Positions 631 to 4,970 of a stretch of DNA of 8,447 bases are shown here, piece by piece. The notes under the pieces are model-generated. The model had not been told where the DNA came from and did not search any database. It was given only the letters and a program-made list of their open reading frames with translations. Every line of letters begins with the position of its first letter. The stretch's first letter is position 1. Origin of the DNA: a bacterium (lineage in GTDB: Bacteria > NPL-UPA2 > JAGMAN01); NCBI GenBank assembly GCA_023130215.1, contig JAGMAN010000045.1:1-8447 (forward strand). Reading direction: 5' to 3'. The position numbers and the translations under genes are program-made.

Positions 631-2247
631 ATGCACCGCCCGCTGGTTGGAATTGCACTCTTCTATATAACAGGTATTTTCCTTGGTTTCTGTCTGGGCG
701 CTACCTTTCTCCACCCTAATTATTTACACCTTCCTCTTATCATGCTCTTCCTAACTATGGTCATCTCCTTCATCAAAAGAAAACCCAGCCTTAGCAACAT
801 CCTCATCCACATCTGTCTCTTATTTCTGGGCACGGTGGTCTATCTCCTGAAAGCTAACCCTTCTTATCCCGGACACATTTCAAATTTATTATTTGAGGGA
901 GAGGAGATGAAAAGAGTGGAACTGGAAGGGACGATTATTAAGGATCCGGAGGTGAGAAGCATTGGTAGGGGGGAGAAGGAGTCCAGGAACGACGATGAAA
1001 GAACATCAGAGAAGAGAACAATCCTCACTGTCAAAGCGGAAAGGATCAAGATACCCCTTTCGGCTCCCCCCTCACCCCTACCCTCTCCCAGGGGAGAGGG
1101 GAAAAAAGGAAAATGGGAGAAGGTGGCTGGGCTGGTGCAAATTTCAGTTTATAGGGAAGATGCGGCTTTCGACTACGGCAAGAGGATAAGGGTAAGCGGT
1201 TGCCTCAGACAGCCTCCTCTGCCGGAGAATCCAGGACAGTTTGACTACCGCAGTTATTTAGTTCGCAAAGGGGTCTATGCCCTCATGACTGTCCACCATA
1301 AAGGGCAGATTGAATCTCTTGGTATTGGCAAAGTGAATCCCTTCGCTAAGTTAGCCTTCCTCATTAAAGATAAAATGAAGAAAGTTCTTAAGGAGACTCT
1401 AAGATATCCCCAAGATGTCCTGCTGGCAGGGATTCTCTTAGGGGAACGGTGGGGAGTTCCTCAAGAGTTGAAAGAGGTATTCACTCAGACCGGGACAGTG
1501 CATATCTTAGCCATCTCCGGACTGCATGTTGGATTGGTAGTGGTAATCTTCATGGTCCTGTTACGGACTATTCGCATCCCCAGGAAAATAAGGGCTATGC
1601 TTACTATAGCTCTGGTCATTCTCTATGCTTTAGTCACCGGGGGACGCCCATCGGTCATCCGGGCTTCAATTATGGCCATAAGCATATTGAGCGCAGCCGC
1701 CATTGGACGTGATAGTGACCTGCTGAACAGCCTTTCTTTAGCCGCTCTCCTTATTTTAGCTGTTAATCCGTTAGAGCTATTTGATTCTGGCTTTCAGCTA
1801 TCCTTTGCCGCCGTCCTATCCATAATCTACCTGACGCCTAAGATAAATAGCCTTTTTCCGAAGGGCTATCCGCCAGCGACTGTCCTTAAGGGATACTTCT
1901 TGAGGTCACTCTCAGTAATATTAGCTGCCCAACTGGGCATCCTTCCACTCATCGCTTACTACTACAGCCTCTTCTCGCCAGTAGCTCTTGCCGCCAATTT
2001 CATTGTGGTTCCTCTGTTAGGAGTGGTGGTAGCCTTAGGTTTTAGCACCTGCCTCTCTGGTCTCCTCTTTCTCCCTTTAGCCCAGGTCTTTGGAGCAGCC
2101 AATGGGATAGTTCTAAGCGGGGTAGTAGGTTCAGTTAAATTTTTAGCTTCTCTACCGCTGGCTTTTATCTACTTAGGCAGTCCCCGAATAGAATTTATAG
2201 TCATATACTATCTTGCCCTGGGAGCAATTTTCTATGCGATTAAGTAA
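631..2247 (+). CDS. comEC: ComEC/Rec2 N-terminal membrane channel part
   Basis: This is the membrane part of the DNA-uptake channel ComEC, 538 residues. Hydrophobic segments at about 4-26, 32-47 and 57-73 are followed by a soluble DUF4131/OB-like region (about 85-235, with NPGQFDYRSYLVRKGVYAL). The polytopic competence domain follows, with its hallmark HILAISGLHVGLVVV starting at residue 291 and GGRPSVIRASIM further on. Full-length ComEC proteins continue into a metallo-beta-lactamase domain; here that domain is a separate overlapping ORF. Residues 146-158 (PPSPLPSPRGEG) come from a GC-rich palindromic repeat at 1066-1101 and interrupt the expected strand-to-strand join between KAERIK and VAGLVQ. 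A charged, low-complexity stretch (residues about 109-127) may be a second insertion. ATG 631 is the first ATG after an in-frame stop at 610-612 and suits the family N-terminus, but no good SD site precedes it. Confidence 0.93.
   Translation: MHRPLVGIALFYITGIFLGFCLGATFLHPNYLHLPLIMLFLTMVISFIKRKPSLSNILIHICLLFLGTVVYLLKANPSYPGHISNLLFEGEEMKRVELEGTIIKDPEVRSIGRGEKESRNDDERTSEKRTILTVKAERIKIPLSAPPSPLPSPRGEGKKGKWEKVAGLVQISVYREDAAFDYGKRIRVSGCLRQPPLPENPGQFDYRSYLVRKGVYALMTVHHKGQIESLGIGKVNPFAKLAFLIKDKMKKVLKETLRYPQDVLLAGILLGERWGVPQELKEVFTQTGTVHILAISGLHVGLVVVIFMVLLRTIRIPRKIRAMLTIALVILYALVTGGRPSVIRASIMAISILSAAAIGRDSDLLNSLSLAALLILAVNPLELFDSGFQLSFAAVLSIIYLTPKINSLFPKGYPPATVLKGYFLRSLSVILAAQLGILPLIAYYYSLFSPVALAANFIVVPLLGVVVALGFSTCLSGLLFLPLAQVFGAANGIVLSGVVGSVKFLASLPLAFIYLGSPRIEFIVIYYLALGAIFYAIK
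1066..1101. repeat. GC-rich palindromic repeat inside comEC
   Basis: A C-rich lead (CCCCCCTCACCCCTA) runs into a perfect inverted repeat, CCCTCTCCC (1081-1089) paired with GGGAGAGGG (1092-1100) across a 2-nt loop. From memory, this resembles the interspersed 'CCCTCACCC...CCCTCTCCC' palindromes found in many bacterial genomes, which when read through give peptides like PLPSPRGEG. Here it lies in frame inside the soluble domain of comEC. Base composition differs sharply from the surrounding gene. The assignment to a dispersed family is inference from one copy. Confidence 0.75.
2220..2224 (+). promoter_or_regulatory. Shine-Dalgarno site for the ComEC MBL ORF
   Basis: GGGAG lies 9 nt before ATG 2234, inside the end of the upstream ORF. 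It favours ATG 2234 over the in-frame TTG at 2213, which has no comparable site, and it suggests the second ORF is translated on its own by coupling rather than being only the tail of a broken gene. Confidence 0.6.
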
Positions 2248-3114: not shown

Positions 3115-4242
3115 TCACTTTCCAGATGATGCCAGGGCGGCCGCCCCTAAGATACCTGCATTCTCCAGCTTTGAGATCTCTATTCTGACATCCTCTGAAG
3201 AAACTACACTTTGCATCCCCCTATATTTCTTTATCGCTTTTTCCACCAGTCTCTTCCACCTGATTCCCATCTTGCCTGCTATTACTACTATTTCTGGGTC
3301 AAAAGCCTGTACTGCATTTCTTATCCCCTCGGCAAGAGCATAGGCTGTCTCATCTTCGATCTTTAAGGCTAATTCATCTCCTTCATCTCCCGCCAGGGAT
3401 ACATGCCTGGCTTCAACATATTCAACCTTCTCATCATCGGATTTAGATTGTATCCCGAGGCTTCGAAGACTTCCATCCTTCTCCACCATCTCTATGATCT
3501 TGGTTTTTCTCCCTTGAGTTAGTATTTTCTTAATCCTCTCTTTGGCTACATCACTAACAGCAGTAGCTGAGGCATGCGCCTCCAGACAATCAGGATGCCC
3601 ACAGGCGCACCTTCTACTTTTTCTTCCTGGTGGTAATGCTATAGTTATGTGTCCTAATTCAGCTCCTCTGAACTTGTGTCCGGTAATCTTTGTTGGAATA
3701 TCTGTCCTGGGATGGGCATGGATTACTCCACCGCCCACACCAGTCCCCAATGTATAAACTACTAAATTATGACCGGCTCTACCCCAGCCACCGAAGATTC
3801 TTTCCCCATCAGCGGCCGCATTGGCGTCGTTATCAACGAAGGTTGGCAGGCCTAATTCTTTTTCAGTAATCTTCCCTATGGCCAGACCTTTGAACCCGGG
3901 CAGGTTATGAGCATCGCCAACCGCTTCATTATAGCCATCCCATGAAGGACAGCCAATCCCGATTCCTCTAAATTGAGACTTTCGCTTACAGCACTCGCGC
4001 TTCCAGCACTCGTAAGACGTGTTTGCTTTGCTCTCCTCAATCAACTCATTTATTGCACTTATCATCCTCTTAATGAATTGAGCTGGCCCAGAGCCTGCAT
4101 CTGTTTCCATCTCCTTCTGATGGATTATTTTACCAGAGGAAGTAACAATTCCCAGTTTGACCGTTGTTGCTCCGATGTCTATTCCAACGCTTGCAGCACT
4201 CGCGCTTCCAGCACTCGTAAGACGTGTAGAATATTCAGACAT
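3115..4242 (-). CDS. ROK-family sugar kinase (glucokinase-like)
   Basis: This is a cytoplasmic ATP-dependent sugar kinase of the ROK family, probably acting on glucose or an N-acetylhexosamine; the sequence does not settle which. Visible: N-terminal phosphate loop DIGATTVKLGIV (22-33), VDNDANAA with the likely catalytic base Asp139, glycine-rich LGTGVGGGVI, ExGH signature E195-G197-H198, and the structural zinc site H198, C212, C214, C219 (CACGHPDCLE). At 375 residues it is longer than most family members (about 300-320). Part of the excess is two copies of one 40-bp element, adding residues about 6-18 (TRLTSAGSASAAS) and 74-86 (NTSYECWKRECCK). Removing the first would give MSEYSVGIDIGATT, a normal ROK start. 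The gene faces away from rdgB and converges on comEC with 14 bp between, with no terminator hairpin visible there. Confidence 0.92.
   Translation of the reverse strand: MSEYSTRLTSAGSASAASVGIDIGATTVKLGIVTSSGKIIHQKEMETDAGSGPAQFIKRMISAINELIEESKANTSYECWKRECCKRKSQFRGIGIGCPSWDGYNEAVGDAHNLPGFKGLAIGKITEKELGLPTFVDNDANAAADGERIFGGWGRAGHNLVVYTLGTGVGGGVIHAHPRTDIPTKITGHKFRGAELGHITIALPPGRKSRRCACGHPDCLEAHASATAVSDVAKERIKKILTQGRKTKIIEMVEKDGSLRSLGIQSKSDDEKVEYVEARHVSLAGDEGDELALKIEDETAYALAEGIRNAVQAFDPEIVVIAGKMGIRWKRLVEKAIKKYRGMQSVVSSEDVRIEISKLENAGILGAAALASSGK
3983..4022 (-). repeat. 40-bp intragenic element, copy 1 (inside ROK kinase)
   Basis: This is 39/40 identical to 4188-4227; the only difference is position 3988 versus 4193. 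On the coding strand it contains two tandem 15-bp units, GAGTGCTGGAAGCGC and GAGTGCTGTAAGCGA. It is translated here as about NTSYECWKRECCK, adding three cysteines and a tryptophan. This is a different frame from copy 2. Confidence 0.9.
4188..4227 (-). repeat. 40-bp intragenic element, copy 2 (ROK N-terminus)
   Basis: This is the second copy of the element at 3983-4022, 205 bp away in the same orientation. It is read here as TRLTSAGSASAAS between MSEYS and VGIDIGATT. The reading frame relative to the element is shifted by one base from copy 1, yet both keep the gene open. The net addition seems to be a multiple of three (about 39 nt). Confidence 0.9.
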
Positions 4243-4382: not shown

Positions 4383-4970
4383 GTGGTAGAAGTGGTCATA
4401 GCCAGTAGAAATTATAATAAAATAAGAGAGGTTAAAGAAATATTAAAGGGACTTGATATAAAATTTCTCTCTCTTAAGAATTTTGCCGACTTTCCAAAAA
4501 CAGAAGAAGATGGGAATACTTTTAATGAAAATGCTCTTAAGAAGGCCCGGGAAATGGCAAAATGGACAGGCAGACTTACCCTGGCCGAGGATTCAGGAAT
4601 AGAAGTTGACTGTTTGGGAGGTGCCCCAGGAGTTCTTTCAGCCAGGTTTGCTTCCACTGACAGGAAAAGGAATCTAAAGCTCTTAAAATTGTTAGAGGGT
4701 GTGCCCCTTTCTAAGAGAAAAGCAAGGTTCAGATCCGCCGTAGCCCTGGCTAATCCAAAAGGTTGGACAAGGGTGGTAGGAGGGAGTTGTCGGGGAAGAA
4801 TCAGTTTTAAGCCAAGGGGCAACAGTGGATTTGGCTATGACCCCATATTCATAATTCCAAAATATAATAAGACTTTCGGCGAATTAGGTTATCCTCTTAA
4901 AAATAAGCTCAGTCATCGGGCAAGAGCTCTCCAAAAAACAAGGAAAATCCTGGAAAGCCTGCAGGCTTGA
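4383..4970 (+). CDS. rdgB: XTP/dITP diphosphatase (RdgB/HAM1 family)
   Basis: This enzyme hydrolyses non-canonical purine nucleotides (dITP, ITP, XTP) to monophosphates and pyrophosphate, keeping deaminated bases out of DNA and RNA. At 195 residues it has normal family length. Motifs: substrate-binding IASRNYNK (6-13), AEDSGIEVD with the likely catalytic/metal Asp70, GAPGVLSARF, FGYDP (150-154) and the C-terminal SHRARAL (177-183). The GTG start at 4383 has a strong SD (GAGGAG) at 6 nt spacing, and translation from it gives the expected first beta strand VEVVIASRN. It is the first gene after a consensus promoter. No terminator separates it from the cold-shock gene, so read-through is likely. 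The -35 box of the next promoter overlaps its stop codon. Confidence 0.96.
   Translation: MVEVVIASRNYNKIREVKEILKGLDIKFLSLKNFADFPKTEEDGNTFNENALKKAREMAKWTGRLTLAEDSGIEVDCLGGAPGVLSARFASTDRKRNLKLLKLLEGVPLSKRKARFRSAVALANPKGWTRVVGGSCRGRISFKPRGNSGFGYDPIFIIPKYNKTFGELGYPLKNKLSHRARALQKTRKILESLQA

Follow-up and report, generated by a model that had tools for sequence, protein, structure and literature searches.

Very small, modular insertion elements, probably translated within conserved genes, in one genus of NPL-UPA2 bacteria

The window analysed here, a stretch of 8,447 nucleotides (nt) from a bacterium of the NPL-UPA2 lineage (contig JAGMAN010000045.1 of assembly GCA_023130215.1), holds a gene for a ROK family sugar kinase of 375 amino acids (aa) on the minus strand (3115-4242; Pfam PF00480, E 1.5e-37), and within this gene lie two copies of a short repeat. 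The copies, 40 nt each at 3983-4022 and 4188-4227, are identical at 39 of 40 positions, have the same orientation and a spacing of 205 nt, and the reading frame stays open through both; positions, identity, orientation and spacing were re-found as given in a preliminary description made from the sequence alone. An exact repeat of 16 nt arose in just one of 200 mononucleotide shuffles of the window and a 15-mer scan gave five matches where 0.4 were expected, hence the repeat is not due to chance. On the coding (minus) strand, each 40-mer opens with the 10-nt head ACACGTCTTA, after which come the 15-nt units CGAGTGCTGGAAGCG and CGAGTGCTG(C/T)AAGCG. Copy 1 (4188-4227, minus strand, net insert of 39 nt at 4188-4226) is located just past the start of the protein and is read in sense frame 0 as TRLTSAGSASAAS, and copy 2 (3983-4022, minus strand, net insert of 39 nt at 3983-4021) is read in sense frame 1 as NTSYECWKRECCK; the two different peptides and the one-base difference in frame behind them, both part of the earlier account, were confirmed by translation.

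Comparison with homologues bears out the proposal that the repeat entered an intact gene. Neither stretch is found in the ROK homologues of the phylum's other genera or in solved ROK structures, which show clean gaps instead, with the site of copy 1 empty in the other genera and that of copy 2 a gap in their homologues and in PDB 2qm1. In contrast, an orthologue with 83% aa identity on contig C9 of G002, a genome of the same genus, has both sites filled (49 nt each). As the two insertions are shared with this sister species, they are not recent. The window also contains empty counterparts of sites that are filled in G002, namely ROK site 3 (CTCATCA^TCGGATTTAG, 3430-3446, plus strand), where the orthologue has a third copy, antisense, with a net length of 24 nt and the peptide ACSTRKTC, and a site in rdgB (GAAATATTA^AAGGGACTTG, 4437-4455, plus strand; gene at 4383-4970, assigned to the RdgB family), where the orthologue has a copy of net 24 nt translated as TRLTSAGSG and belonging, like both window copies, to a variant called form B. 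Many further pairs of filled and empty orthologues were found in other genes.

Copies were sought by pattern and protein searches plus a sample of contigs in the window's genome and two others of the same NPL-UPA2 genus (together G000, G001 and G002; metagenome-assembled genomes, MAGs, 69-90% complete), as well as in G003-G008 and ~50 other genomes. The two relatives are candidate division NPL-UPA2 MAG-914 (JAJOKU01) and CSMAG_2268 (JAUWHM01, labelled Nitrospirota). Pattern searches recovered ~13 copies in the window's genome and 30 and 35 in the relatives, approximate counts from which overlapping matches and one other family were taken out. A local duplication within the ROK gene only might be suspected from the clustering of form-B copies, eight of which are found in 4.7 kb of G002:C9 in a region syntenic with the window, but this idea is refuted by the empty sites and by copies that occur by the dozen on other contigs, in unrelated genes, and we give it practically no credence. 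G003-G008 and the ~50 further genomes gave isolated chance-level matches only and nothing convincing in the rest of the phylum, and in a scan of 84,980 species multi-copy matches were limited to two MAGs of the window's genus. Single matches outside the genus had different flanks and were taken as chance, as were nine 16-mer matches in viral contigs, where the word is short and none matched form B. An assembly artefact is ruled out by sites common to MAGs from separate projects. As far as these genome sequences go, the family is restricted to one genus of NPL-UPA2, a lineage known from serpentinising springs whose genome paper makes no mention of repeats or insertions.

The core of the family is ACACGTAAGAGTGCTGCAAGCG, and its commonest form has 22 nt, ACACG(T/A)AAGAGTGCTGCAAGCG (34 of 71 complete copies). 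The 40-mer of the window is a local variant of this core: in form B, TCTTACG replaces TAAG, and a 9-nt head (ACACGTCTT) and a 15-nt tail unit are both repeated, the ROK copies being the longer form with the unit in tandem. Other long copies have modules placed between GTGCTG and CAAGCG, which are 12-nt mini-hairpins in G000 (CCTTTAGGGCTG, TCCACAGGACGC) and CAGCCGAAGCAGTGCCGTAAGG-like blocks in G001 and G002. Complete copies range from 22 to 112 nt, and the length of all 71 is 1 mod 3, so that nearly all net inserts are multiples of three (3n). A palindromic structure of the core was ruled out by folding, as both the 22-mer and the 40-mer fold worse than the means of their own shuffles (z +0.70 and +1.39) and small hairpins occur only in the inner modules. 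Nor do the ends (ACACG and AAGCG) form an inverted repeat.

Filled and empty orthologues show a net insert of 21+3k nt, i.e. the element minus one base, at A^AARG, and no target duplication was seen at the sites compared. An empty site consists of one base, mostly A, followed by AARG, and downstream of the copies the consensus is A at +1 (52/71) and +2 (59/71), then R, and G at +4 (62/71). Net inserts at orthologous sites measure 21, 24, 33, 45 or 72 nt: 21 nt at coaE site 2, rplO, thrC, murC, a sigma-70-like gene and a histidine kinase, 24 nt at rdgB and ROK site 3, 33 nt in an asparagine-synthase-like gene, and 45 nt at the N-terminus of fabD. Site 1 of coaE has gained 45 nt in G000 and 21 nt in G001, each relative to an empty site in G002. 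The sole exception to 3n seen, a net insert of 22 nt (L057), coincides with the stop codon of a UVR-motif gene, a position at which frame is of no consequence. Genes and intergenic DNA both receive copies and the majority lie inside long open reading frames (ORFs), sometimes two or three in one gene. Hosts assigned by NCBIfam and Pfam comprise ispH, rpsA, RNase PH, rdgB, coaE, murG, murC, murB, thrC, aspS, fusA, tmk, mfd, tig, fabD, rplO, an L25 gene, a parB-type gene, rmlD, an addB-like gene, a sigma-70 factor, the YchF GTPase and others. As a separate observation, core copies occur within coding runs of (GAAAAAC/GCGAAAA)n at L097:1440-1520 and L091:1460-1530.

The count of reading frames covers 67 copies, each lying within an ORF of 140 codons or more. 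Every one of the six frames is represented, with 58 copies in sense orientation (35, 11 and 12 in frames 0, 1 and 2) and nine in antisense. In sense frame 1, where the core would present a TAA stop, this triplet is kept in none of 11 copies, compared to 39 of 56 elsewhere (p=1.7e-5). The idea that the element is tolerated due to its open frames, put forward in the preliminary description, is supported by both results, whereas the accompanying idea that the encoded peptide plays no part held only partially: AAARG sites predict 67% sense copies, distributed 17/16/25 over the sense frames, but frame 0 was observed 35 times, about twice its prediction, which suggests that its peptide TRKSAASE is accepted more readily than the other possible peptides. 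Taken together, the lack of TAA in the frame that would read it and the 3n lengths argue that the inserts are translated rather than removed; their residues would then be present in the finished proteins, where we infer them to be near-neutral. Removal after transcription or skipping by the ribosome, as in a mini-intron or a byp-like element, would leave the protein unchanged, and it might be invoked because the hosts are essential enzymes and the sequence has hardly changed at ancient sites, much as expected of a recognition sequence. However, neither 3n lengths nor the avoidance of TAA would be needed if the insert were efficiently removed, and the preference for frame 0 is at odds with it as well, making this a very improbable explanation.

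We therefore favour, with considerable confidence, the view that these are very small, non-autonomous, dispersed insertion elements of one NPL-UPA2 genus that are translated where they lie in genes. The core inserts 21 nt (CACGTAAGAGTGCTGCAAGCG) at the A/AARG junction and duplicates no target, and internal and tandem modules, all multiples of three, extend the element to ~111 nt. Elements land in genes and between genes alike. Genic copies would survive only where neither their length nor their frame interrupts the ORF, and the survivors would simply be translated, contributing 7-37 extra residues. Movement might be provided by an outside enzyme or a nucleic-acid intermediate.

A number of points weigh against this view. 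Some of the antisense spanning ORFs may be spurious, and no transposase or donor was identified among the three genomes of the genus at their 69-90% completeness. An ordinary element of the miniature inverted-repeat transposable element (MITE) or repetitive extragenic palindromic (REP) type, driven by a transposase (Y1/RAYT or another insertion sequence (IS) family) whose master copy the draft genomes lack, is a related but rather unlikely option. Single-strand Y1 transposition can in principle insert beside a fixed short target without target duplication, which would fit the sites described here, and G001 encodes a Y1 transposase of 222 aa. Yet no element copy lies near this gene, no link between the two was found, G000 and G002 gave no Y1 match within their incomplete drafts, and the element has neither inverted-repeat ends nor a better fold than its shuffles.

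The uniformity of the copies speaks against simple passengers as well. Sites filled in more than one species (ROK 1 and 2, ispH, fusA, murB, murG, parB, YchF and coaE) point to old insertions, and odd variants that species share at parB and at a response-regulator gene indicate descent and not reinsertion. Between species, lengths at shared sites differ by multiples of three (22->73 in YchF, 46->85, 112->82, 58->67), and in murG the inner modules match each species' own local kind. At shared sites, 15 of 460 element positions (3.3%) differ, compared to 330 of 2483 (13.3%) in the flanks (p=8e-12), a comparison in which alignment gaps favour the element somewhat and ungapped 22-mers have 0-1 differences. 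Furthermore, 34 cores with 0-1 mismatch were found in 0.72 Mb and none with two, the classes with 3-5 being nearly all composites or form B; decayed copies were absent from these 0.72 Mb. Inert passengers of such age should have decayed, so that homogenisation or selection at the nucleotide level may be at work. According to another reading, the element serves as a DNA or RNA site (an uptake signal or a binding site) that selection or biased conversion maintains, and its genic location is incidental. This would explain why shared sites change four times more slowly whatever their reading frame, and why decayed copies are lacking; comEA/comEC-like genes also adjoin in the window. On the other hand, there are just ~13-35 copies per genome, their presence or absence is lineage-specific, and they arrived as insertions of 21+3k nt and not by point mutation, so we regard such a site as improbable. 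For the insertion elements favoured here, it is conceivable, if somewhat doubtful, that copies are actively kept uniform, either by templated rewriting (from short single strands of DNA or RNA, or through some other drive) or by selection on the nucleotide sequence. If true, a 22-nt element would have spread through essential genes under a rewriting process or direct sequence selection.

Repeats of a similar kind accompany the family. An inner module alone, 51 nt long and in frame, is present in the V-ATPase subunit I gene of G002, the G000 site being empty. A second modular (outer) element with ends TACGGTGAAACA...GGCAGTACCCGAAGGGTA occurs in further long ORFs and has inner modules in common with the first family; in G001 and G002 it is found, with ends TACGGTGAAACA...GCAGTACCCGAAGGGTA, within ORFs that are 321-600 codons long, with copies near position 1500 of L344, L349, L337, L334, L338 and L323. 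The two families nest, as the fabD gene of G001 (L085, ~1479-1554, plus strand) contains a 75-nt in-frame insert formed by an antisense second element that encloses a 22-nt core. Apart from these, the comEC-like gene of the window has a separate in-frame REP-like palindrome at 1054-1107 (plus strand; CCCTCTCCCAGGGGAGAGGG, peptide PPSPLPSPRGEG), with a similar stretch in G001 and none in G003, a member of the same order. A perfect inverted repeat, ACACGAAGGAGTGCTCCCCT...AGGGGAGCACTCCTTCGTGT, was seen in G001:C5, and one of its arms in G000:C120, similarly placed within a sigma-54 regulator-like gene (L209:380-560; L210:640-860). Another, unlike dispersed repeat, ATATTACGAAAATGGACAGTTGCA, is present in some five copies across 118 kb of sampled G000 contigs (L211-L228) and possibly represents IS ends.

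Several known systems resemble this family in part. GC clusters and double-hairpin elements of fungal mitochondria are tiny, bear hairpins, nest mutually and enter coding genes, but they belong to another genetic system and have another sequence, and the minimal core described here has no hairpin. The byp elements of Magnusiomyces mitochondria likewise form many short blocks in most genes, although they break the reading frame and ribosomes pass over them (PMC5009743), while frame and stops are respected in NPL-UPA2, which points to translation. REP sequences and bacterial interspersed mosaic elements (BIMEs) share the size of 20-40 bp, modular composites and the lack of own coding capacity; however, REP are palindromes located outside genes and have a tagged end (PMC3733652), and our elements are neither palindromic nor extragenic. 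Bacterial MITEs with ORF fusions such as ERIC, Correia (107 bp) and YPAL (PMC2229807) are similarly non-autonomous, with in-frame intragenic fusions and both filled and empty sites, but at ~100-200 bp they mostly possess terminal inverted repeats and target duplications and are mainly intergenic, whereas the NPL-UPA2 copies have neither feature and lie mostly in ORFs.

The closest precedent had been named, and set aside as apparently unrelated, at the outset: Rickettsia palindromic elements (RPE) and their Wolbachia relatives (PMC10969869, PMC3767692, PMC2229807). In both systems, small in-frame inserts in conserved genes are lineage-restricted, with sites common between species and several families together. 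RPE are, however, palindromic, 100-150 bp long with terminal inverted repeats, encode a conserved peptide and belong to the Rickettsiales, whereas the present family has a non-palindromic core of 21-22 nt, copies of 22-112 nt, all six frames in use (albeit with an excess of frame 0), modules of 3n length and nesting, and comes from another phylum. It works like RPE yet differs from them in size, palindromy, peptide and lineage. The system allows tests of the way in which short DNA can spread when it has neither inverted ends nor target duplications, of which protein positions accept random peptides, and of how a 22-nt sequence stays exact at ancient sites. In-frame selfish repeats in bacterial genes have so far been known mainly as the Rickettsia and Wolbachia palindromes of ~100-150 bp; in comparison, the core in NPL-UPA2 is about five times smaller, non-palindromic, modular in 3n and read in six frames, with filled and empty sites over three related species.
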